From Balamuthia mandrillaris (taxonomy: Eukaryota > Discosea > Longamoebia > Balamuthiidae), in the NCBI GenBank assembly GCA_031835245.1, contig JAVKOQ010000089.1, positions 1 through 64,000 on the forward strand: a stretch of 64,000 bases of DNA, given 5' to 3'. Made by a program: the position numbers and the translations under genes. Each line of letters starts with the position of its first letter. The stretch's first letter is position 1. This document shows positions 4,790-54,459 of this stretch, in pieces. The notes beneath the pieces were generated by a model that saw nothing but the letters and a program-made list of their open reading frames with translations, was not told the DNA's origin and did not search any database.

Positions 4790-5110
4790 ATGCCCGGACT
4801 CAACGACCCTATTTGTGCCCCGATGACCATCAACGGCCGTCGTGTCACTGCTGTCATAGACTCTAGCGCCAGCCACTCCTTTATGGACCCTTCTATTGTT
4901 GACTTAGTTCGTGCCAAAACCAAGCAAGCCTACTACACGGTCAAACTCGGACACTGTGAAACCACCGCTACATGGCCGCCGAAACGGAGCCACTCGCTAT
5001 TGGCTTCGGCGAACGCCGTTTCCATCACATGTTCTCCGTGTTGCCTCAACCAGACGGTCAGTCGATCATCTTGGGCCGCGACTTCATGCGCAAGTCCGGC
5101 ATGGGCATAA
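4790..5110 (+). pseudogene. Retropepsin-like protease remnant of the chromovirus
   Basis: The frame from 4790 reads ICAPMTINGRRVTAVIDSSASHSFMDPS, which matches the flap-less start of a Ty3/gypsy aspartic protease, where the catalytic motif is normally D-S/T-G-A. Here the glycine is replaced by serine (DSSAS), which would be expected to impair activity. The second half of the protease continues in the next frame from about 4972 (AIGFGERRFHHMFSVLPQP, IILGRDFMRKSGMGI), so a frameshift also splits the domain. Confidence 0.75.
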
Positions 5111-7347
5111 CGGACGTTCCAATCGACTACCCTGAGGAACCACTACCCCGCTCCAAGGACCACGACATCACCCGACGCCAACAGCAACGTTTGGTGAAAG
5201 CTGTCAAGGAACACATCCGCAAGCGTATTCTCGAAGCCATCGAGAAATACCTCCAGGAGAATGAGGCTCTACCGACAGGACCTTCCTGTACCCTCCCCGA
5301 AGCAGTTCTCCATCTGGACACTGGAGACAACCCGCCTGTCTTTCGCCATCAATATCCCATCCCGCACCATTTAATGCTCGTGATCGATCTGCAAGTGGCG
5401 GAATGGCTGCGTACCGGCGTCATCGTGCTTGCCCCACCCGACAGTCTCTGGAACTCTCCTCTTACCGTCGTACCCAAGAAGGACGCTGACGGCAACGTCA
5501 CCCAGTGGCGTGTCTGCATCGACCCGCGCCTCCTGAACAAGCTCCTCTTAGACCTCACATACCCCTTCCCTACTATCCGCAGCATTATCTCCAAAGTGCA
5601 AGGCTTTTTCATCGCCTCTGCCCTCGACCTTATCTGGTCTTACACGCAATGCCCCATTGCTCCTGAAGACTGCGTCAAAACTACATTCACATGGAACGGT
5701 CGTCGTTATATGTTCGTCACCGCCATTTTTGGCATCAAGATCGTTGCACAGCACTTCCAGCGCCTCATGGACGTTGTCACTGCCGCTATTGCCGAGTTCA
5801 CTTCCCATTACATCGATCACCTCGCTGTCGTTTCCCAAAGCGTGGAAGAACATATCGAGCACCTTATCCGCGTTATCCTCACTCTCACCGCTGCGGGACT
5901 CCGTATCCGTCGGGAGAAGTGTCAGTTCGGGTACAAACGCCTCTGCATCCTCGGTTTTATCATTGACCGCAGCAACATCCTTCCCGACCAACGCAAGCTC
6001 TCCACCTTCGCACTCCTAGAAGTACCTTCCACCGGCAAGCAAATGCAATCCTTCCTTGGCTTTGCAGGCTACCTCCGCGACTTCGTTCCCATGTTCGCCC
6101 AACTCGTTCGCCCCCTTGACGCCCTCCGAGATCGTCCACCGCCCTGGCGTTCACATGATTCTCGAGGACTGTCTCTCTCGGCTATACCCACGCTCCTTCT
6201 GGGACAACGGTGGTCTTACACCCCCCTCCATCCCTTCGATCACGTCGCCATCGATCTGTTTGGCCCACTTCCCACTTCTTCCAAAGGCTTCAACTACGTT
6301 CTGGTCACCACAGACATCGCTACCCGGTTCACTTCTCTCCGCCCAGTCCACGCCAAGACTGCCAAAGATGTGGCCCGCACCCTCTATCAAGTCATCTCTG
6401 ATTTCGGCCTCCCTAAGATCCTTCAGTCTGACAACGGCACTGAGTTCGTCAACGCGGTCATCAAAGCTCTCAAGACACTCTCTGGCTTTGAGCACCGGTT
6501 CATCTCGGCCTATCATCCTCGAGCTAACGGAGCTGCAGAAAGCCATGTCAAGCTGGCCCGCAACACCCTTAACAGCGATTGGTCTCACTGGCACACCTTT
6601 CTTCCTGCCGCCCAATATGCAATCAACCAACGCGTTACCCGTCGTCACAAGTCTTCCCCTTTCCAACTGTTCTTTGGTCGCCCAGCTACCACTCCACAAG
6701 ACTATTCTTCTTCCTCCTCCCAGCTTCCTACCGAAACTCTCCTCTTGGAGAACGCCAAGCAAATGCATGATATTGTCTACCCGGCATCAGCATCTTCTAC
6801 TCGGAAGCACAGCTCCAACACCAAGGCTCAACATGATTCTTCTAAGCCACTCCGCGAATTTTCCGCTGGCCCCAAAGTCATGCTACACAAGCCTCCCAGG
6901 TCTCCCAAGTCTCTTCCTGAATACTCTGGCTCTTACACAGTCATCCGCTGCAATCGTGGTGGTGCATACTTCCTCCAGGACAGCACTGGCGTTACCCTCC
7001 TGGACAATTTCAGCCCCAACCAGCTGAAGCTCATCCCCCCCCACCCTACTACCAATGACCTCCCACCCGATGAGTACGAAATAGATGAAATCCTTGATCA
7101 CAAAGGCCCAGCCAATAAGCGTGAATACTTTGTTCACTGGAAAGGCTACCCACATTCCGATAACCAATGGATCCCTGCTAAAGATGTTCATGCTCCCAAA
7201 CTCGTCAAACGTTATTGGGACCTTCTCAAACAACACTTATCTCAAGACTCCTCATGTTGGATCCGTCCCGGACCCTCAGCTCTCCTTTCTTTTTGTATCC
7301 TCCATCCTTCCTTTCTCCCTTTTCCCCTTTCTCTCGGTGTACTTTGA
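4972..7347 (+). pseudogene. Chromovirus Pol: RT, truncated RNase H, integrase core, chromodomain
   Basis: A 791-codon open frame. Residues about 1-45 are the end of protease. RT follows with WRVCIDPRLLNK, motif A ALDLIWSYTQ, and the catalytic box YIDHLAVV, in which the second Asp of YIDD is His; this copy therefore should not polymerise. After RPLDALRDRPPP the RNase H domain is missing; only its last motif survives in the +1 frame near 6128-6190 (HRPGVHMILEDCLSRLYP). The integrase HHCC zinc module is also gone, but the DDE core is present: VAIDLFGPLP, LQSDNGTEF, and YHPRANGAAES. The C-terminus has a chromodomain (EYEIDEILDH, REYFVHWKGYPHSDNQW), which places it among Ty3/gypsy chromoviruses. 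An open frame this long despite two internal deletions suggests a non-autonomous derivative or a recent loss. Confidence 0.9.
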
Positions 7348-7804: not shown

Positions 7805-10200
7805 ATGACGCCAGAACAACAAGCAGAAAAAGCAGCACGCACGGCTGCTTCGAAGGCAAAGTCCAAAGAAAAGGCAGAAGTCAAGCGCAAGGCTCGTGCT
7901 CTTCTTGATGGTTTAAAACTTCGTGAAGCCTTCCGAGCACTCCCTATGAAACAAATCGACCTCTTCGAATACCCAGACTCGGTTGGCCAGCTTCTGGACG
8001 GTGTGTGGGGAGGCTACTTCGAAGACCACCTGAGCAACCACTCCGTGAGACACGTGCTGTGGACCTTGCTCTTGGAAGCAAGCTTCTGCTCAGCATAAGC
8101 CAAAAGATGGAGAAGGAGCGCAAGAAGATGTATCAAGAGAAGATGACGAAGGCAGCACACAAAGCGGTATCATCCCAAATAACCGTGAAGGTGGAAAAGA
8201 AGGTTTTGCTTTCGCTTGGCAAAAGAACAGTTGGTTCACGGCACAATCATCAGATGGTGAGCCAAGTTTCACGTCAAAAATGGCGACGATCACAACGATT
8301 GGATCCAAACAAGACAGCTGACTCTTGTGCCATCCAGGATTACCTCGCTTGGCGGACTTCTATAACTACATCTGAAGTGCGTCGCTTCATTGTGGTGATG
8401 CTCAAGTCAGGCTACAACCGCGCAGCAGATGTGAAAGCGATGATCAGCGATGAAGACGCCCTCTACCACTTCGCCACTGACCTTTTCCCCCGCGACCGCT
8501 TCTTGGTGCTCTATCGATGCTTTCGGTTTTCTGACAACTTTGTCCATCATCTTCAAACTACAATAAACGAGAACACAGCCAAAGCGTGGTCTCCAGCATT
8601 GATTGCTGCAATTGATGAGTCTCTCTGCCCCTACATGGGAGCAAATAACCCCAACCACGTCTTCATTATTCGCAAACCTCACCCTAACGGAACCCAATTC
8701 TGGTTATTAGTGGACCGCTCTGGTGTTTGCCTCTACATGTCCATGTATGAGCGAGGCAAACCAAAGGAAGCAGCAGCAGAGACCTTAGCCCACCTTGCCT
8801 CCTTTGCACTTCTGTGAAGCGAGATAGACCCAATGCCATCTTTGGCCAATGGCTTCTTAATGGCCTTGGTGACAAGGAGTCCGCCCATGCCCGTCTTCGA
8901 GTCAATGCCATTCCTCCTCAACAAAAGCAACGTGGTGGGCAACCTCACATTGCTACTCCTGATGAGGCAAAAGAGCAACTCAGGTGTAGTAAAGTCCCAC
9001 CAACCCTTTTTGGTCCAGTTATAATGACTACAACGACTTCTCGGCAACAAATACCTGCTTACAGCCTTGAAGGAGATGGTGGAGAAGCAGAACAGCGTGC
9101 AGAGCTGGATAAGACATTTGTTCTAACAACTGAAGAAGCTCTAAACAACAACCCATTAGGCTTGCTTGAACGTCAAGCTGCAGAGTTAGCCCGACATTAT
9201 TCTCCATCAATGCCCTCAGATACTTCTTCGACAACAGCAGCTACAGCAGCAGCAACTAGAGCTCAGCAGAAGACAGAAGAGGAGATGGCTATTGCTCTTG
9301 CAGATACAGGCTACCTTGAAGGCATTGTTGAAGGAAACGTTGATGAGATTCGCCAAAAGCTCCGAGAGGCTGCAGTTGCAAAGAGGGCAAAGCCTGTTCC
9401 TCTTGATGCTCTTCCTTCTGACTTTGATGATGGCAATGATAACATCTTCACTACAATCCTTGCCTCTTCAATGAAACGCAACAAGAAAACGATAAACACA
9501 CTTTCTTCTGTCTCTTCTACTGCAAAGGCGGGAAATGTTGTTATCTCTTCCCTTATCGATGATGCTGACTGCAACGATCACCAACAAGTTCGTGTTTCGA
9601 AAGGAGACACGCTCTCGAGTGCGTGAATGCTACTCTGATAGGATAGATCCTGTGGATGAGCTTGACCGCGAAGTTCTTGAGTGCCTTCCGACCTTCAAAT
9701 GGCCACGATGGGAGTCATCCATAATCATGTGGATGGTGGTTGTCGCCCTTGTGTGCAATGCACGACGCTTTTGGCTGAGTGGGACCGGACAAGTGAACAG
9801 CAAAATCTCAACCAGGGAGTGGGTGTCTCGTCTCTATCGTGCCTTTTTCCCTACGCGCAAGCAGATCCGACAACCAGCTCCAGCTCTTATCAAAGGGCAG
9901 TGTCATTCGTGCAGCTGGCGCTCAGGAAAACAGTCACGCACAACACTCCTCTGTGCAAAGTGTGGATTCATTTGCAAGCGCTGCCAAGTACCTCGAGAGG
10001 ACGCTTGCCAGCTCTCCAAGCATGACATTTTTGCTTCTCAACATCGCAAACCTGGAACGCGCAGCGCTTGGACCGACTTTGCCAGGTTAACAGAAGCAAG
10101 AGAGAAGCAGCTGCTGAAGATGGCAAAAAAGGAGGTGAAAGAGGTGAAGAAGGAGGCGAAGAAGCAAAAAAAGATGAAGAAAAGAAAGACACTGCAGTAA
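7805..10200 (+). pseudogene. Decayed piggyBac-type transposase
   Basis: Three successive frames carry parts of a piggyBac transposase (DDE_Tnp_1_7 family). 7805-8098: basic Ala/Lys-rich N-terminus from ATG 7805 (MTPEQQAEKAARTA). 8101-8817: the N-terminal part of the catalytic domain with SEVRRFIVVMLKSGYNRAAD, FPRDRFLVLYRCFRFSDN and AAIDESLCPYMG, the last holding the first catalytic Asp. A frame change near 8808 leads into VKRDRPNAIFGQWL and a Ser/Thr/Ala-rich stretch where the canonical second catalytic region is not recognisable. 9535-10200: DPVDELDREV, FKWPRWESSI and CNARRFWL, then a Cys-rich C-terminal module (CHSCSW, LLCAKCGFICKRCQ) and a lysine-rich tail. At least two frameshifts make it non-functional. 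Terminal repeats and TTAA target sites were not identified with confidence. Confidence 0.8.
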
Positions 10201-26939: not shown

Positions 26940-29900
26940 CTATTGGCCACGATATTGCTGTTGCCTTCCTTTGGCAAGTTCCATGCGAGCCTGCTCCAGC
27001 TGCTTCTCCAACCTTAGGATTTCGATCTGCTTCTCCAAGTCTGCCTTTGCAGACGGGGTGAGTGAAAGCCTTTTGTTGGAGGATTCTTCCTTCTCGGCTT
27101 CAGCAGCGGCCTTGGCAGCTTCCACCAGCTGAGAGGTGGCAGCTGCTACGGCCTTGGCTGCCGCTGACAGAGTCTTTTGGGATTGACTCGTGGGGTCAGC
27201 CTTGGCTCTGCTGGCTGCTACCAATTGAGCGGTAGCAGCAGCAACTGCTCGAGCTGAGGCGATCAACCTCTCCTCTTCGCACTTGCCTTGTGCTGAATCA
27301 TTAGCGTTTCTGACCAGTTCTTGAGTGGTGGCCGCAACGGTTTGGGCTGCGCTGATGAGACCGTTTGCCCAAGTAGGATCTTTACGGTAAAGGTGCTTGG
27401 TCTTGGGGTTCTTGCCCTTGGCCACACGTTCCTTCTGAGCTACGTGGGCGCCGCGCACCAAGGAAGCTGTGGCTTGCGTGATGGCTCGTGCTGCCTCAAT
27501 AATGGCCTCAGTAACTTCGAGTTCCCCAGGCTCGAAAACTTCTTTGCGGGGTCGGTCCATCAAGATCTTGGCCGAGTTTTCAATAACTTGGGCACATGCA
27601 CGAAGCTCCTTTTCGGCCAGTTCTTCAAGGTCCTCACCGGTATCTTCCTCCAAGGTAAGGCCTTGTCCACCAGGAAGCAGGTTAGCAGCAGCTACGACTT
27701 CTAGCAGATGGTCCGCACACTCTCGAGCAAGCGAGGAGACAGCGGCTTGACTCTGCAGGTTTTTTTCCTTGGAGGCGCTCTTGCAGGACTCGAGCAACCG
27801 CATAGCACACTCGGCTGTTAGTTTGGCGGCAGCGTCCAACTTTTTTCGTACCTCCAACTCCTGCGTAGTCTTTCCACCTCCTTTAGCGCAGAGCAGCAAC
27901 TCGTTGACAGCAGCAGAGGTAGACTCACAGGCGGCCATGAGCTCCTCTTGCGAGTTGCCACACCCAACCACCAGCTCACCGGTCGAGGCAGCCACAGAGC
28001 GTGCTGCCGAGACCACTCTCTCTGCATCAGCTGAAGAGTCTCCTTGGAATTGAGGAGAGTCGTACTTGCTGAGGATATCCTTGATGGCTCCTTTGGCTTT
28101 GTCGATCTCCATGATGCCTCTGGCTGACTGAGCGGCAGCTGTCTGGGCAACTTCGATGAGAGTGGAGATGGCACCTGCCGTAGATTGCAAGCTATCCCTC
28201 AGCACCTGCTGTACCAGGGGTTCTTGCCCTTTGCCGTGCGCATCTTTGCCGATGGAAAGCAGGTCCTGGGCCGCTCTCTGGCTGTCCTTGCAGGCATCGA
28301 TGAGCTTCTGCTGAGCTACCTTGTCTCCGCCAAGAGCGCCTGTAGCCTTGGTGAAACGGGCCAACTCCATGCCCAATACCCCCAAGGCTTTGGCTGTTCT
28401 TCCCAATTGGTCCTGGGAGGCCTGCACGCTCGATGCAAACGCCTTGCTGGCCTCTTGCATGTCTTTAGCGTTGCTGATAAGGGCGTTTTGGCATTGCTCC
28501 CAAGTCATTCCTGGAGCCAGCTCGTTAGGGTCTACTTGCCCTGCTGCGGCGAACAAGGATGAGGCATCCAGATCGGCAACCACCCGACCCAACTGGTAGA
28601 TAGCGTCCTCACATTCGCGCTCTCCTGATGGATTCAAAACGACATAGGTGAGTAATGATCTCAATGAATGGACTAGGAAAAAGCACAGAAAGACTTACCA
28701 GTAGCGCCAGCATAACAGGCGTCCAGTAACCTGGTAATAGCGCTGGTAACGCCAGCGAAGGCAGAGCCCATCGTTTGGTGGTGGGTGCGGTTCTTGGGGT
28801 CGTTGGCAACGTTCTTGGCCCCTTCCAACAGCTTGGCGCTGGCCGTGACGGCTGCTCTGCCCTCCGAGGTGAGGGCGGCACGAGCTTGCCCATCGGTGGT
28901 GCTGCTGGAAGCCTCCCTTACTGCAGCCACCACGACGGGTACCAAGGCTGCCACCGCCTTGGAGGCTGCGCCCATGTCGTCCACGTTGAGCTTCGACGAG
29001 TTGACCAGGTTGGACAGCTTTTTGACCAGCTCCTGCGTGTGAATGTTGAGCTCCACCTTGCACTCCTTGTAAGGCTTGCTGGCTGGAGAGAGAGGTTGAT
29101 CGAAGGCGTGGGCGGCCTCGCTTACCAACCTTAGCGCCTCCTCGATATCCCGCATGTTGGATACACCCGACTTGAGTGAGTTGGCAAAATTAAGAAGGGC
29201 CTGGTTGGCCTCTTTGCTCTTGTTAGCAACATCCGCTGGAGAGCCCTTCCCTGCCGCGCTCTCTCTGACTGTCCGCAGCAAGCCCAACATGCACTCTGCC
29301 AGTTCTTTTCCCAGTATGATGAGGGAGCGCTGGGTGTCTTTGTTGGAAGTGGTGGCTGCTGCTGACTTTATGAGGCCGACCAGGTGGGGCACGTGGCGTT
29401 CGGTGGAAGTGGCTGCAGCCGGCCGCTGCTGTGAAGCAGCTGGATCTGCAAGTTGCTTGATATCCGCAGCAATATCGCGCATGAGCACACCCAGCTCGTG
29501 CTGGCAATCCTGGTGGGTCTTTCCGGGGGTACCCTCCAGTTGCCCAAACGTGGCCGCGATGCCTGCAGAGGCTAATTCTCCAATGCAATTCTCGAGGGCT
29601 TCGATGGCGTTATCGCACTCCTTGACACCTGGAGAGAGGGCCGTAGCCGCGTGTTCCAGGGCCTCGATGGCTATCGGCATGTTGTTTGCTGCAGAGGAGA
29701 GCTTCATCTGGGCAGTGTTGTTCTTAGGATTGCCACAGACGTCGGCAGAAGCGCTGAGCACCCTCTGTGTGGCCTCCACCAGCGACCTGGTAGAGGACAA
29801 CAATTGGTCAGTGGCTGCGTCTCCTCCAGTGGAGACCGCCAACTTAAAGTCCCGGAGAGCAGCAAATCCCGCATCTATTTGGTGAGGAGCAACGCCGCTC

Positions 29901-32900
29901 CGTGCACTTCTCGCAAGAGAGGCAGCGGACGTGGCTAGTTTCTCGGTGGCTAGGATGGTGTTTCTTCTTTGGGTAGGATCAACGTTGTTAGAGGTGGCAG
30001 TAGCCTTGGCTTGGGCCACAATGGCCGTGGCAGCCTGTGTCAAGCCCTTGCACGCTATCACTACTTTCTTGGTGTTATCAGCGGCTCTCAGCTCATCAAG
30101 AGCGTGGGCGGCTTGGATGGTGGCGCCTGCGAACTGACGAGGGACAGCGCTAGCCTGGCCGCTGTTGGAGGCTGCTGTGTTGGACACATCGACTGCCTGA
30201 TCCACTGCATTGACAGCCCTAAGAGAGAGGGAGCCCAGCTTGTCTGGAGAGGTTCTGGCGCAGGTCACAATGCCCGAAGTGGCCTCACCAAGGGCTTGAA
30301 GGGCTGTGGGCAGTTCGTTGAGTGGGCGTTCCTCGCTAGGCACTCCTCGGTCCAGCTTTTCAAGCGCACGGGCCAACAGGTTTAGGGCCTCTTTGATCTG
30401 CTTTTGACCAGGCTGAGCGGAGCCAAGAGCATCGAGCATCTCTTGCAAGAGACGGCTGACAGAGTTGGCAGCAGCCAAGAGATTGCCCTTGGAGGAGGCC
30501 CCTCCAGTGGTGGCTGATATTTTAGCAAGCTCAATGACTTTGGCGCCCTGGTAAGCCATTTCTTTGGCGGTGGCCACCAGTTTCTCTGTCGCTTCTGAGT
30601 CAGGGCAGGAGGAGGCTGCAGCGATGGCTGCATTTACGAAAGGAGATACAGCGGCGGAGGCCATCTTGGCAGCAGGCACTAAGCCTTTCAGGTTGCTCTC
30701 CGCTGTTACGGTAACGTTCTGCACGGCGGCAGCGTAGGAACGGGCTGCCGCCACTAGTTGATCGGCTTTGGCAGGAAAGTCTCCACAGCTGCCCGGCGAG
30801 AACTTGATGCGATTGGCTTCGTTGCTGAGCATAGTGGCGGCCTCGTCCAGGTCCTTCGTGTCGATGCCACGAGCGATGTTGACGAGAGAGGCCAGCGTGT
30901 TGGTCAGGTCTTGTCCGAGAGAGGTCAACTTGTTTCTCATCTCCATGTTGGTTGGGTTGTGGGAGAGCTTGTTGGCGCCCTCGATGAGATCACTGCTGCG
31001 GGCACAAAGGTTCTTAGAAGCAGCAATAATGCTTTTTTGTGTGGAACTGTCAGGGACGTAGCTGGTGAGGGTCTTGGCTGCGTTAACCACCTGATAGGTG
31101 GCGCCAGCCGTGTTCTTGGCAGCAGGGCCAACGTCATCCGGTGTATTGAGGGCAGCCTCCTCCAGCGGGGGAATCGACTCCTGCAGGCTCTTGGCTGCAA
31201 AGTCCAATAAGTCCAGTGCAGAGTCAGCATTCTGGCCTGGGAACTTGGGCAGAGTGCCAGCCTCGGCAGCAAAGGCAGCAGCTTCCAGGTCGGCGGCCAT
31301 GTAGGTAATCTGCTCTAGGGCCTTGCCGACTTCTTTGGTGGGGCCTGCCATGGAGATGGCTTGCGTAGCCACCATCAACTTTTGCAACGCGGCTGCCGCT
31401 TCGTCCGCTGCCGAGTTAAGGCTGGTTTTTTTAGTGAGGTCGGCGATATGCGGGATGGAGCGCTTAGAGGTGGCCACGAGGTTGGCCAAAGGAGGAGCTG
31501 ACTGCTTGCCAGCAGCAAGGAGGTGCTCCTGGGCAGGGCCATCGGTGTGGAAATCGTTGGCATATCTGATGGAGTTGACCAATTCGGCCAGAGCACCTGC
31601 GGCAGTCCTTGCTGCCTCCAGCAGGCTTTTCTTGGTCTCCTCGTTGCGCGCTCCGGAGGCGCTGCTGGTGGAGGTGGCGATGAGGGCTGCGCTGGAAGCA
31701 GCCGCTGCTTTGGCCCAGTATCGCACGCTCTCCATGACGGCACTCTTACCGTCGTTCAACAGGGCTTGGGCGGCGGCTTCCAGAGCAGCGGCGCTGGATT
31801 CCACCTGACCCATACTGTAGGAATCATTGGGATTGGCGCTAGCTTGACGGCAGGATGACACCAGCTTGGCACAGGCATCAGCCAGAGTCTTGGCAGCCAG
31901 CAGCAGTGAGTTGCGACTCTGTGGGTCTGCCGTAGTTGCCACCACCTTGGTAGCCTGCAGTACCTGATTTACAGCTTCTTGGATGGCAACGGAAGCCGGG
32001 TTTATGATCTTGGGGTCCTTCCTAGCGTTGCTCGTCAGGTTTTCAACGTTGGTGCGAATGGTCTGGACAGGTGTGAGAAAGTCCTGCGGTTCATTGCCTC
32101 TCTGCCCAGCACATGTGGAGCTGTCCATGAGCTGTGCAATAGCGTCTCCGACCACTTTGGCAGCCGCCCTCAGATTGGCGAGTGAATATTCATCGAGACC
32201 GCTGGCGGCCATAGCATCTAACAGCTGTTGATTTGCGGACTCCAAGGCTCGGCATACGGTTGCCACTTGGTTCTGACACTCAGGGTTGAGAATGGCAGGG
32301 GTAATAGCCGTTGTGGTGGTAAGTACACCGGCAGCTGAGACTGCCACTTGCTGGCAGCCCACGATGGCCCTTTGCCTCCTTTGTGGATCTTGAATGCCTT
32401 GTGCCAGGAATTTGGCCTCTCCCACTAGGGCTGAACTGGCCGCTGCCACCATCTTGGCCGACTCCAATATCAATTGTTGGGAGGGCTGATCCGCAAGGGT
32501 GCCTGCTGCAGCTGCATTGATATATGTGGCAGCACTTCGCAGTCCCAGCTGGGCAGCTCGGAAGGCTTCCATAGCCTGAGGGCTGTTGGGGTTTTTAGCG
32601 AGCTCGCTCGCTGCTTGGAACAGCTTCGCAACAGAGTCAGATAAGGCCTTGGCTCCATCCAACAGAGACACATCGTCTCCCGCCAGAGAAGCCTCGTGCT
32701 TGGCTGCCGCTATCAGATCCCTCAAATTCTGGTAGAGAGCTTTGGCTCTGGCATCGGCCTCTGGCCCTCCTGCTGGGGCAGCCGCTATGAATTGGGTGGC
32801 AGAGGCTTCCAGAGCAGCGAGCGCGTCGGCCAAGGCCATACCCGCACCATCCGATATGGCCAGAGCAGGATTCTCGAATTGGGAAACTATTTGGTTGGCA

Positions 32901-34590
32901 GCAGCAATGGCGGTTGCTAGATCCGACACAGAGATGAGCTGTGCATGCTGCCCCCCAAATCCTTCCCTGCCTGCGATCCTTCCCGAGACACCCAGCATTC
33001 CCTCCTGTCCTTGGCTTGGATCGAAGTTGCCCTGACCAAATGTGGAGGTTGTGGTGGAGTAGGCAGTGCCACGCACAGGGGCTATCTGTTCTTCCTCTGC
33101 CATGTCTCCGTCTTCATCATCAATAATGCGGGAAGCATCTAGTGTATGTCATATAAATTGGGTTGCCATATAATGGAGGTTACAGTCACGCTATCAGAGT
33201 ACAAAAGGCGAAGGCACAACAGACCTTTTCTGGTCTTCAATATGATATCTATGTAGCCTGCAATAAGCTGCGATATGGCCTCTCCTTCATCAGTTTGCAT
33301 AGAAATGTAGCTATCTTCATAGTCGCCAAAATCCATCGTGAAACTGGTGAGTGATGCTGCCCATCGCTTCAAGTGGGTTAACGGGTACTCTTTAATGACA
33401 GCCTAAGAGGTAACAGAGAGAATTTGTTGAATGAGATGGTGTGTGGGTTTCGCTGAAAGAATCTCTCTCTCTCTCTCTCTCTCTCTCCTTTGCGCAAATG
33501 TACCTTGGTTTCAAAATCCATTCGCATGATAGAATGTCGAGTAATGCCCAACGTTCTAGGAACCAACTTCTTCTTTACCTTCTCCTTGACGGTGAAGAAG
33601 GTGATACCATAGGTTTTCAGAGAACGACAAAGTTGCACATAGCGGTATTTAGCGTTAACTTCGGTCATGCCAATTAACTTGGCATACTCCTTTATGACAT
33701 CCTTTTCCATGTTCTTTGATTTGATATGTGCTGGAGATACAAACTCCTTCAGGCTTAAATCATAAGCAGGAGGACCAAGAACAAAGCATGGATGAGCAAT
33801 CGGTACATAGAGGCGAGGGATAGCATCAACATAAAACACTAAGGGAAAAAAGTGTGCGTACTTCATCCATCCAGGCTTAGCATGTCGGGAAGCAGTGTAG
33901 TCCCCTTGGGTAACCTGACATTTGAGGGCTGCAAGGTCTCGAGCTTCTTCACGGGTAGTGGGGTGGTCCCCTGATATGATGGCGTTACTTGCCTGTACAT
34001 ACAACAAATGGAGTTGAACGGGGTCCGTCCTGTCCACGTTGGCGTCGTTGAAGAAGAACTTTTTCTTAAGCAGCAGAATCTCTTCCTCGTTTACACCTTG
34101 TTCTTGCAAGGACACGCTGGGGTTGAGCCACTGGTTCGAGTCTTCTTTCTTGAGAGAAAATTCCTCGGGGTTCTTTATACCCATTTTGGTGCCGACGACC
34201 TCTGTTATTTGGGCCACGGTACTGCTGTCGTCCACCAATACAGTTTTTATGGTGTCATCCAAAAGTTTTATTTTGAGCTGTCGGTGTTTCTTTTTGTACT
34301 CTAGCTCCGTCTATGGAAATATGGTGCAAGAAGAAATAGGTCAACGGGTAGATCAAAGGGACAGACAGAGGAAAATGTACCCCACTCTGAAGGTCATAAA
34401 ATCGCAGGGTCTTTTCGGGCTTTAACCAACGCGGCTTCTCGCCGGCTTGAAATATGCCGTGGTCAACGCCGCCCGCTCCTGTCTTGTCTCTGATCTCTTT
34501 ACACATCTCCGAAACTGACATGTCGGGGTTAAAGCGCATGACCTTAGTGGTCCCCAAGGTCGACAGCTTGATCTTCAAAGACAGTGCCAT
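26940..34590 (-). CDS. Talin (FERM head, helical-bundle rod, I/LWEQ actin-binding module)
   Basis: Start ATG 34590 (MALSLKIKLSTLG), stop TAG 26940. The head is spread over several exons (34590-33138): F0 with MRFNPDMSVSEMCKEI, F1/F2 with VQLHLLYVQASNAIISGDHP, and F3/PTB with KRWAASLTSFTMDFGDY and GEAISQLIAGYIDIILK, the integrin-tail-binding lobe. A single exon of about 4.4 kb (28699 to about 33138) and a last exon (28624-26940) encode the rod, rich in Ala/Leu/Ser helices such as ALEAAAQALLNDGKSA. The C-terminus is the I/LWEQ (THATCH) domain (WANGLISAAQTVAATTQELV, LIASARAVAAATAQLV) and a dimerisation helix ending LAKGRQQQYRGQ. Total about 2,480 residues, as in Dictyostelium TalA; there is no villin headpiece, unlike TalB. 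It links adhesion receptors to F-actin. An intron near 33465 has a (CT)n tract that is purine-rich in sense. Confidence 0.95.
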
Positions 34591-46125: not shown

Positions 46126-47288
46126 ATGCCTGTCCGGTTTGCTGACCAAGGGTCTATCAAGGCCGCCATTGCTGACGTGCTTTCCCCCACAACCTTTTCT
46201 GGATGGTTCGTTGTTCTTCTCTTCTCTTTCTGCATTTCTCTTCTGCTCTCTGTCTCTCTGTCTCTCTGTCTCTCTGTCTCTCTGTCTCTCTGTCTCTCTG
46301 TCTCTCTCTCTGTCTGTCTCTCTCTCTTCCCCTCCCCCTCCCCCTCCTCCCTTGAGTGGTGGTGTGATGAGAAAAAAATTAAGGTCTTGTTCGTCGGATT
46401 CACGCCGTGACGATGCCATAACGGATTTTCCTGATTCTCTCTTCTCTCTTCTCTTCTTTCTCTCTCCCTTTGGAAGTCCTCCCACCTTTTAACTCAAGTA
46501 TTGCTGTCCTTTTTCCCGAACAAAGGGTGTTGGTGGGTTACTCTGGCCCCGAAACTCTCGTCCTTCAAGCCAAAGGCAGCGGCGGCGTCCCTGAGCTCGT
46601 CTCTAACTTGAAAGGTTTCCTTATTCTGCTTTGCTTTTCGTGTCCCTTTTCTCTTCTCTCTCGACGCTCTGTGTTCTCGTCTGCCTCGGCAGTCTCTTCT
46701 CTGCTGCACATTTTGCTGACACCAAGAGTGAACAATAGATAACGAGGTTCAATACTGTTTGGTCAGGATTCCTCTTGAGAATGCTGTTTCTTCCTGTAAG
46801 TGTTTTTTTTTTCAGTTTCGTTTTTGTACTTCTATGTTGTTTTTTTCTTACCATCATACGTTTGCAACCTTCAGCCCGAGCCCAAGGAGACCCTCAAAAG
46901 GTCAGCAGCTTCTTGTTGTTTTTTTTTAACTATGCCCTCTTAGCTCTCACCTTCATTCTCTATTTCTCTTTTCTTCTTTCTCACTTTCTAGACCCGAGAC
47001 GTGTTCATTGCATGGTACCGTTCGCTGCATTCATTGTTTTTTTTTTTCAGACCTTGTGTGGGTTTGAGTTACTAACGTAATGTTGCGCGGTGTTGTGATG
47101 ATAATAATAGGACTGGGCCAGCCGTGAAGATCATCGAGAAAGGCAAAAAGATGGCTCACGTCGGCGACGTCACCAAAGTGTTGGCTCCCTCCCACGCCGA
47201 ACTCACCGCCATCAGCAAGCAAAACTTCACAGAGGCTGTCGTCCGTGATCGTAGCGACGTTTTGTCTGGCTCTCACGTTATTGATTAA
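46126..47288 (+). CDS. Coactosin-like ADF-homology actin-binding protein
   Basis: ATG 46126 (MPVRFADQGSIKAAIADVLS), TAA 47286; about five exons. Splicing exon 1 (ending at about 46206) to an acceptor after GAACAAAG near 46527 gives TTFSGWVLVGYSGPETLVLQ, the first strand of an ADF-H fold, then AKGSGGVPELVSNLKDNEVQYCLVRI, and in the last exon TRDVFIAWTGPAVKIIEKGK, VTKVLAPSHAELTAIS and FTEAVVRDRSDVL. The GKGSGG-type loop and the long C-terminal helix are coactosin features; about 130-140 residues, the usual size. Coactosins bind F-actin and protect barbed ends from capping. Intron 1 hosts a box C/D snoRNA (46360-46438) next to an octanucleotide repeat. Confidence 0.75.
46246..46328. repeat. (TGTCTCTC)n octanucleotide repeat
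   Basis: About ten TGTCTCTC units inside intron 1 of the coactosin-like gene, 32 bp before the snoRNA. Confidence 0.9.
46360..46438 (+). ncRNA. Box C/D snoRNA, intronic copy 1
   Basis: Box C GTGATGA at 46364-46370 and box D CTGA at 46431-46434, 60 nt apart, plus a C'-like box GTGACGA at 46407-46413. Flanking GAG and CTC can pair as a short terminal stem. Between C and C' it carries TTAAGGTCTTGTTCGT (46379-46394), complementary over 16 nt with one G-U pair to the highly conserved 18S rRNA segment ACGAACGAGACCUUAA. It lies in intron 1 of the coactosin-like gene in sense orientation, the usual way such RNAs are made. A second copy is at 52120-52202. Confidence 0.85.
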
Positions 47289-51889: not shown

Positions 51890-52089
51890 CTAGAACTTTG
51901 TGAATTGCCTTTGGTCTCCATCTATCCGTTGGCCGTAGGGATTGTCGGCGCTGAACCTTCCTACTCCCCTCACTTTGCCTTTCTTGTCCGCAAATTTGGC
52001 CAACTTGCGTCCTTTTGGCTCTCTGTTGCTCAAGTCTGCAATAAGGAATTACGATTGTTAGTTTGAAAAAACAGGGAGGGGAGCAGAGT

Positions 52090-52129
<40 letters not shown>

Positions 52130-54459
52130 GAAAATCCGTTATGGCATCGTCATGGCATGAATCCGACGAACAAGACCTTAATTTTTTTTCTCATCACACT
52201 CACCAGGAGAGAGAAAGGGAGAAAGAGAAAGAGAGTTAAAAAAAGCATACTTAGGTTGACTTTAGGGGGTACGGTAAAGCCGAACGATTTCGCTACTTTG
52301 AGAAGATCGAGTTCGTGCACGTTGAAAATGTGCTTATGAGAGTGTGAGGCATACGCCAGAAGGTAGGAACGATAGGCATCCCGAGCTGAACGATGAAGAT
52401 AATAGTTCTTTTCGACTAGTCTCTCCAACTTGTATCAAAAGTAATCAGCATGAGATAGCAACAAGAAAAGAAGGAGAGAACGAAAGAAGAGAAGCAGGTT
52501 AGAGACATTACCTGTGACTGCACGTTGGCAATTTTGCTAGAGGGGAACTCGTACTCATCCAAAGTAACTCGAGCTTTCTTCAAGTACCTCAGGTAACCAA
52601 GCTCTTGGGGAAGCACGAAGAGAAGAGCACGTCCCTGACCACCAGCTCTGGCCGTTCTGCCAACCCGATGAATGTATTCCTTGGGGTCATCGGGAGGATC
52701 GTACTGAATGATCCAATCAACGGCAGGGATGTCCAGACCTCTGGCTGCCACATCCGTGCACAGCAATATTCCGTGCTTTGCATTGCAAAACTCAAAGAAA
52801 GTATTTGTTCGTTTTTGCTGCTTTTGCCTTCCCTAAAAATCAGACAGCTTGTGTTAGTAACAACTTGTGGTTAAATTTAAAAAGAAAAGAACATACATGA
52901 AGGTCGAGCACAGGAATATCAATATAATTCAGGAGCTCAGCGTGATATTTGACAGAATTGCAGGAGGAGAAGAACACAATGACCTTTTTCTTGATGTTTT
53001 TCTTGAGGAATGTGAACAACAACAAAAATCGTACTTCGCTAGGCACCACCACGTAACCCTATTACCACAGCCAATTTAGATATGTGCAAATATGTAAACA
53101 ATCAAGCAAGCCGAACCTGTTTGAGCCCATCGACAGTGGCTTTATCCCTGTGGTCGTCCGCTCCGATGTACTTCACAGTGGACTTCAAAGAGATCCTTGC
53201 CAGGTCTTCAATCTTTTTGGTCTGAGTGGCAGAGAACAAGAGCGTCTGCCGCTCTTGTGGGAGAGCTTTAACGATGGCCTTCATCTCTTCCTCGAAACCG
53301 ATTTCCAAGATACGGTCAGCCTCGTCGATGACAAGGCACTTCAGGTTGTGGAAGTTGAAACCCTTTGTGTTTTGAATGTGGTCCAAAAGACGACCAGGAG
53401 TGGCTACCAGCAAGTTCACGCCCTTTTGCAGCTTATCAGCCTCCGTCTTACGGTTAGCACCGCCGATCACCAGTCCGTGCGTCTGTGTGTGGTACTTGAG
53501 CAGCTCTCGTGCCACACCATAGATCTGAAGGCATAACTCTCTGGTAGGAGAAATGATCAACACTCCCGTTCCTGCGTACAAATTTTCGTAGTGGCATATA
53601 AGTGCAAAGAACGAGACATGAGAGAAGAGAATGGAAAAAGAAAAGTAGCGAAACGAGAGAGAGAGAGAGAGAGAGAGAGAAGAGAGGAAAAGGGAAAACA
53701 GGAAAAACAAACCGTTTCGAGGACGGAATTGGATACGATGAAGGAGTTCAATGGCGGGAATGAGGAAGGCCAATGTTTTGCCAGAACCCGTTCTGGCGGC
53801 AGCCAACACGTCTCCACCGGCTAACAAGTGGGGCAAAGTCATGGCTTGGATGCGCGTCAGCCGCTCAAAGCTTTGGTCCTGCAATGCACGCTTCGTGTTC
53901 TCGGAGAGAGTAAAGTCGCTGAAGAGTTGGTCGGTCAAGAGCCCACCTTCATCCGCTGTTTGTAGTTGTTTGGCAAAAGTAAGAGAGAAAATACACCGGA
54001 AGAACAGGAAGGAAGAAGGGAGAAAGGAGAAGAAAGGAGAAGAAGGAAGAAACCCGAACCAGAATATTGGACCTGGTCAGACACAGGAAGTTCATCGCGG
54101 TTCCATTCTTCCTCAGACAGCTTTGCTCTTTTGTTTGTGGTAGTTTCTTCTTCCTCGTCTTGGTCTTCCGCTTGTTCCTCTTGTGCTTCATCTTCCTCGT
54201 CCACTTCTTCCTCTCTTTCTTTCTTCTTTTCTGGCCTTTTCGGAGATTGTTTCTTATCCGCAGCTTGCTTGTTCTCCTTTGTCGGTGTTGTTGGCGCCGA
54301 CTTGGTCTTTTGGACAGGAGAAGAAGAAGCGGGCTGTTGCTGCACTACGCTTTCAGGGACGGAAGCTTGCTCCGCAGCGGCCGCTCCTTTTTGTCCTTTA
54401 GACCTCGATCGCTTTCGCTTTCTCTTACTCACATTGTTATTGTTGTTTGGTTCGCTCAT
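51890..54459 (-). CDS. DEAD-box RNA helicase DDX18/Has1
   Basis: ATG 54459 ([20 protein letters not shown]), TAG 51890; about eight exons. After a basic and acidic low-complexity N-terminus come the Q motif ([31 protein letters not shown]), motif [43 protein letters not shown] as [12 protein letters not shown] in [10 protein letters not shown], then [58 protein letters not shown]. The Has1-specific C-terminus follows: [53 protein letters not shown]. Has1/DDX18 acts in nucleolar pre-rRNA processing for both subunits and in releasing snoRNAs. Fittingly, its last intron carries a box C/D snoRNA (52120-52202). Sense-strand (CT)n tracts lie in introns near 52095-52120 and 53655-53680. Confidence 0.95.
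52120..52202 (-). ncRNA. Box C/D snoRNA, intronic copy 2
   Basis: On the minus strand: box C GTGATGA (52197-52191), box D CTGA (52129-52126), and the same internal antisense TTAAGGTCTTGTTCGT as copy 1. Across about 75 nt the copies differ at only a few positions (for example one extra A in the A-run and TTCATGCCATGACGA for TTCACGCCGTGACGA). GAG before and CTC after can pair as a terminal stem. It is in sense within the last intron of DDX18/Has1, again beside a (CT)n tract. Confidence 0.85.

Follow-up and report, generated by a model that had tools for sequence, protein, structure and literature searches.

Gene content of the window and the host introns

The window in this work is a stretch of 64,000 nucleotides of Balamuthia mandrillaris, an amoebozoan of Centramoebida (assembly GCA_031835245.1, contig JAVKOQ010000089.1, positions 1 to 64,000 of the forward strand). 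A coactosin-like gene lies on its plus strand and a DDX18/Has1-like gene on its minus strand. The spliced exons of the coactosin-like gene make a single open frame of 150 amino acids, which matched Cofilin_ADF of Pfam (E 7e-16). For the DDX18/Has1-like gene, Pfam showed CTE_SPB4 in the exons flanking the last intron and DEAD in the upstream ORF. These domains agree with the genes that the original prediction had named as hosts of a common intron segment, and the finer names coactosin and DDX18/Has1 fit as well and rest on that prediction itself. All splice sites given here are predicted ones, chosen so that the reading frame was kept open.

The window also holds a talin rod reading frame (28673-33103, minus strand), and residues 1-500 of this talin showed 100% identity over 93% of the query to the Balamuthia mandrillaris "Cytoskeleton assembly control protein". 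Going by eye through the ORF list, we found frames like a non-LTR reverse transcriptase (286-891), an LTR-type polyprotein with integrase and chromodomain (4972-7347) and a PiggyBac transposase (8005-8817).

A segment common to two introns

Intron 1 of the coactosin-like gene and the last intron of the DDX18/Has1-like gene do contain a common segment, at the places where it had been predicted: the arms 46372-46442 and 52118-52188 are complementary at 96% over 71 nt. We call the two copies A and B. Each of them lies in sense to its own host, which is also as proposed, and copy A as a DNA query against the whole genome returned copy B at 95% (E 9.5e-28). Box C GTGATGA and box D CTGA, expected for both copies, were located in A and in B, whereas the C'-like GTGACGA expected for both is present in A and is replaced by ATGACGA in B. 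The coordinates of all elements are listed in Table 1.

A snoscan-like scan of the 64-kb window gave five candidates, compared with 3.6 per shuffled window, so the scan alone is not specific. The three candidates other than A and B had guides of 10 bp.

Table 1. Coordinates of the intronic snoRNA copies A and B with their elements and host introns, and of the U24-like candidates elsewhere in the genome. Positions are those of the window unless a contig is given.
Feature	Position	Strand	Remark
Intron 1 of coactosin-like gene, host of copy A	46206..46525	+	GT..AG
snoRNA copy A, box C to box D, 71 nt	46364..46434	+	
Box C GTGATGA, copy A	46364..46370	+	
Antisense element 5' of D', copy A: TTAAGGTCTTGTTCGT	46379..46394	+	16 bp with own 18S 1445-1460 (15 Watson-Crick, 1 G-U)
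D'-like box CGGA, copy A	46395..46398	+	invariant in 6/6 copies
C'-like box GTGACGA, copy A	46407..46413	+	TGACGAT invariant in 6/6 copies
Putative second antisense element (D guide), copy A	46418..46430	+	
Box D CTGA, copy A	46431..46434	+	
Last intron of DDX18/Has1-like gene, host of copy B	52036..52250	-	GT..AG, frame runs on to stop
snoRNA copy B, box C to box D, 72 nt	52126..52197	-	
Box C GTGATGA, copy B	52191..52197	-	
Antisense element 5' of D', copy B	52166..52181	-	16 bp with own 18S 1445-1460
D'-like box CGGA, copy B	52162..52165	-	
C'-like box ATGACGA, copy B	52147..52153	-	
Putative second antisense element (D guide), copy B	52130..52142	-	
Box D CTGA, copy B	52126..52129	-	
U24/SNORD24-like candidate, intron of TPR-protein gene	C48:126650-127300	-	83 nt before predicted 3' splice site
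U24/SNORD24-like candidate, intron of ubiquitin-activating enzyme E1 gene	C7:474100-474700		71 nt before predicted 3' splice site

Six copies in the genome

The genome searched comprises 64.8 Mb in 775 contigs. A DNA search with copy A revealed a third copy, C, on another contig and 79% alike. The 18-mer AAGGTCTTGTTCGTCGGA, which consists of the antisense element followed by CGGA, occurs exactly six times genome-wide: in A, B and C, and in copies D (contig C66), E (C84) and F (C336). With copy C as the query the same six loci were recovered, and with copy E the loci C, D, E and F. Thus a check for further genome copies, as the original prediction had advised, led to six loci including A and B. 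When up to three mismatches to the 18-mer were allowed, 51 matches including the six exact ones were obtained, compared with 93 for a reversed control pattern. The six exact matches and the two with two mismatches were read, leaving out the 43 with three mismatches; at the two loci with two mismatches no C/D boxes in register were seen by eye.

The host introns of the family are 194-320 nt long. The intron that hosts copy C belongs to a Cid1-type poly(A) polymerase gene (PAP_assoc, Pfam), those of copies E and F belong to a CHCH-protein gene (Pfam), and for the host of copy D no Pfam match was obtained within the gene piece searched. E and F lie within 3-kb stretches which are 90-95% alike and carry the same CHCH-protein gene. 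They are therefore haplotypes or a segmental duplication, leaving five host introns in all, and for some regions both haplotypes may be present in the assembly. The proposal of a duplicated gene was right in its snoRNA reading, which is supported here, and too narrow in the word "duplicated", because the copies form a dispersed family in five host introns. Both retrotransposition and recombination into introns are possible ways by which the copies spread.

The scattering of the copies over unrelated introns, together with the retroelement-like frames seen by eye in the same window, might suggest a short interspersed repeat or mobile element which contains C/D-like words by chance. A transposable repeat would give many copies with borders unrelated to C/D boxes, and the original prediction had named dozens of box-less copies as the outcome that would speak against the snoRNA reading. 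Instead, the 64.8 Mb contain the exact 18-mer at six loci, each with C/D boxes, and the matches at up to three mismatches stay below those of the control. Moreover, the repeat of A and B barely exceeds the distance from box C to box D, and a transposon has no need to conserve an antisense element for 18S rRNA. We consider the mobile-element explanation extremely improbable.

Boxes and conservation

In the alignment of the six copies, GATGA of box C, the 18-mer, TGACGAT of the C' region and CTGA of box D are invariant. Box C reads RTGATGA without mismatch in A, B, E and F; in C and D it is GGGATGA, with one mismatch. Box D CTGA is found in all six copies, and from box C to box D the span is 71 nt in A, 72 nt in B and 68 nt in C, where it is counted from GATGA. 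The internal boxes are also present, with TGACGA in six of six copies and the D' box CGGA in six of six, the latter with one mismatch to CUGA; such a mismatch is common in internal boxes.

Conservation was counted in copies A-E, the five distinct ones, over 68 columns from box C to D, with the elements marked by the analyst on the alignment. Invariant columns made up 38 of the 44 in elements and 8 of the 24 in spacers (p 1.4e-5), and without the 18-mer used for searching the contrast is still p 2.2e-3. The boxes and the antisense element are fixed in five intron contexts while the spacers change, which supports the snoRNA reading. Copies A, B and E fold no better than shuffled sequences and no stable terminal stem was predicted in them; there is no clear terminal stem in A or C, and by eye a few pairs are possible in B and E.

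Pairing with 18S rRNA

The 18S gene of the organism was located via its 5.8S gene, identified with Rfam, and this single 18S copy was used throughout. The element 5' of CGGA pairs with 18S positions 1445-1460 by 16, 16, 15, 14, 14 and 14 bp in copies A to F, and each duplex includes one G-U pair and ends exactly at CGGA. An antisense stretch of about 10 nt or more directly 5' of a D or D' box is present in this way in all six copies, at D'. The duplex energies are -22.0 to -23.8 kcal/mol, compared with -16.7 (A/B, C) or -18.8 (D, E/F) kcal/mol at the next-best place in the rRNA, of which the LSU part is incomplete. Dinucleotide shuffles reached the observed pairing score 5, 6 and 11 times in 1000 for A, B and C, and their highest scores exceeded the observed ones. 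Copy A scored 16.4 and copy C 15.4, their reverse complements 11.8 and 14.2, and their reversed letters 11.0 and 9.4. Because the shuffles and the reverse complement of C (14.2 versus 15.4) come close, the pairing alone is not overwhelming.

By the +5 rule, the fifth position before D' faces A1449 of the 18S rRNA. In yeast numbering A1449 is position 1326, a placement into which seven modified yeast positions all fit, and the yeast letters give an identical target there. In an excerpt of a published table (PMC11542601), Arabidopsis Am1330 equals human Am1383 and stands 55 nt after Gm1275/Gm1328 (yeast Gm1271); the yeast cell of this row is empty, and O. tauri Am1297 and P. abyssi Gm1064 are included. 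Through the yeast numbering and this excerpt together, A1449 corresponds to Am1330 in Arabidopsis and to Am1383 in human. The snoRNA reading gains support here, since the 18S element ends at the D'-like box and its +5 nucleotide corresponds to a methylation site of plant and human.

The box C/D snoRNA family is thus very probably real, as judged from its sequences. With high confidence we propose that A and B are two genes of this one family, whose D' element would guide the 2'-O-methylation of A1449. The RNA would be released from the spliced host intron, and core C/D proteins sitting on its C/D motif would protect the ends. The element 5' of the D'-like box would then pair with 18S 1445-1460, and fibrillarin of the C'/D' unit would 2'-O-methylate A1449.

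Position before the 3' splice site

The distance from the end of box D to the predicted 3' splice site is 91, 90, 96, 79, 66 and 67 nt in copies A to F, where copy D would have 97 nt with an alternative acceptor. In mammals, according to an excerpt of PMC8178906, about 70 nt to the 3' splice site was reported as optimal for C/D snoRNAs, most of the most abundant ones are less than 100 nt from it, and it is not usual for a C/D family to be distributed among several hosts. The similar distance in all copies supports the snoRNA reading.

We also searched the genome with Rfam SNORD24 (RF00069), and obtained five sub-threshold matches, the best with 33 bits at a gathering score of 41; such a search yields sub-threshold matches in 11 of 14 control genomes as well. 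Two of the five were examined in sequence, leaving out those on C113, C2 and C237. Both candidates have GCCA/TGGC ends and an 11-bp match to the organism's own LSU 1699-1709, and their box C is poor by eye (AAGATGT). They resemble the A-F family in lying in introns of unrelated hosts with similar 3' spacing, but differ from it in the target (LSU 1699-1709) and in the GCCA/TGGC ends. A genome search for U14 (RF00016) gave no match at E <= 1. For a test by random placement, seven introns were taken (those of A-E and of the two U24 candidates) and one common RNA length was assumed; 3' distances as narrow as the observed ones arose in 58 of 200000 placements, and in 79 of 200000 with the alternative acceptor for D.

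The same spacing could come from an intronic cis element under selection, such as a splicing enhancer or branch-point regulator, which does not act as a guide RNA. In human, base pairing of SNORD2 with the intron of its host changes how that host is spliced (PMC10324135, in excerpt). However, a cis element leaves unexplained why the copies match 18S rRNA at a known methylation site and why they resemble the plant snoRNA snoZ43, and we find this explanation very unlikely.

The second antisense element

The putative guide 5' of box D (D guide) falls into two groups, ACGGAATTT in D, E and F and ACGGATTT in A, B and C, the latter being one A shorter. Its longest run of contiguous Watson-Crick pairs with the rRNA examined is 9, and no convincing target was found for it in the organism's own 18S and incomplete LSU. 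One weak candidate is 18S 1435-1443, which adjoins the D' target on its 5' side and has a mismatch at position -3 and A1436 as the +5 nucleotide; here the contiguous Watson-Crick pairs number 9 in D, 8 in E/F, 7 in A/B and 6 in C. Another weak candidate is LSU 318-326, with 9 pairs in E/F, flush with box D. Both candidates are a poorer fit for copies A, B and C than for D, E and F, and duplex energies favour neither. For the D guide of A/B, the score of the 18S place is reached by 11 of 2001 18S windows and by 0 of 2516 LSU windows, but in 2000 trials with shuffled guides it was reached 407 times. The second antisense element may be either functionless in A, B and C or serving a second site.

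A 12-bp match between the D guide of copy C and "LSU" 2362-2373 was rejected, as it falls on non-rRNA sequence within the LSU copy. In this copy (C49:80500-90400, minus strand), about 1 kb of non-rRNA with pyrimidine-rich tracts replaces domain IV/V, at about positions 1880-2850 of the LSU match, and it may be an insertion or a misassembly. Pattern searches for an intact LSU domain IV/V of the organism did not find one and gave decayed LSU-like pieces or a chance match. LSU-like pieces occur at the ends of contigs C50 and C76 and at the start of C60, where a stretch like integrase/chromodomain follows (by eye). Compared with the conserved letters, these pieces carry many G-to-A and C-to-T differences.

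The two groups of D guide raise the question of whether A and B are snoRNA-derived pseudogenes without stable RNA, the active genes being E/F, C or D. The shorter D guide of A, B and C, which gives a worse fit to either candidate target, and the lack of a clear terminal stem in A would be matched with this view. But A and B retain the exact box C, D' element, C' and box D, they form the longest duplex with 18S (16 bp), and in them box D ends 91 and 90 nt before the predicted 3' splice site. Copy C, which also has the shorter D guide, varies in its spacers yet keeps the elements. So we regard pseudogenes as an unlikely explanation, though the least unlikely of those weighed here against functional snoRNA genes.

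Relation to known snoRNAs

Rfam scans covered the window, one further locus and, singly, copies A and E, and in none of them was a gathering score reached. The scans of the window (5 matches) and of the further locus (8 matches) placed no snoRNA model on the copies. With cmscan, copy A alone had 4 matches, two of them to CD-box families, and the lowest E-value belonged to a lncRNA family matched on the opposite strand. For copy E, 17 of the 18 matches listed (E <= 10) were CD-box families on the sense strand, with SNORD49 lowest in E-value and snoZ43 second. The snoZ43 model (RF00330) aligns through the D' antisense element, at 15.1 bits in A and 19.4 bits in E, below its gathering score of 43.

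An excerpt of PMC3511168 gives RF00330 the name AtsnoR32 and the site Am1327, which it sets beside human Am1383. An excerpt of PMC8053127 assigns Arabidopsis A1330 to SnoR32, which it also lists for U1266. In the plant entries consulted, snoZ43/AtsnoR32 carries the same element GGUCU[C/U]GUUCGUCG after box C, for the same 18S site. Unlike it, the Balamuthia copies stay under the gathering score, and no second element for U1266 is seen in them. From these likenesses of sequence, the Balamuthia RNA seems to act at A1449 in the manner of snoZ43/AtsnoR32, yet it is outside that Rfam family.

The guide of human 18S Am1383, which we take to be the intron-encoded SNORD30/U30, acts on the same rRNA nucleotide as the +5 site of the family. 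No SNORD30 match was listed by cmscan for copies A or E. The human guide is given under another name, RF00338, in an excerpt of PMC3511168. In our literature search we found no report linking SNORD30 to A1383, and none on snoZ43, on a box C/D snoRNA of Acanthamoeba or on a snoRNA of Balamuthia.

Among amoebozoans, Dictyostelium discoideum offers a comparison through excerpts of PMC8817022. Its C/D snoRNAs are likewise guides using D and D'. However, the C/D genes there are intergenic (all in a set of 47, except CD38), whereas the present family is intronic. The same source describes C/D genes as largely outside introns in Dictyostelium and in other species with three-digit introns. Its Table 1, with 49 sites of RMS score >0.75, has no site matching Am1383.

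Meaning for Balamuthia and for snoRNA evolution

The family is an exception to the picture of C/D genes largely outside introns in the excerpts of PMC8817022, with two families examined in Balamuthia. Going further, one may speculate, though we would not yet count it as probable, that Balamuthia has vertebrate-like C/D snoRNAs coupled to splicing. They would be single genes in unrelated housekeeping introns, with box D 66-97 nt before the 3' splice site, and would have been copied from intron to intron; D, E and F would perhaps methylate a second site (18S A1436 or LSU A322) which is absent from A, B and C.

As a small case, the family illustrates the movement of a snoRNA from intron to intron. 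It is mildly surprising that an amoebozoan has such a multi-host intronic organisation with similar spacing, and that a guide is kept for a site absent from the lists for Dictyostelium and yeast. With it, an amoebozoan would have a guide for a methylation of plant and human that is missing from those two lists, and this distribution fits an ancestral methylation which was lost in some lineages.
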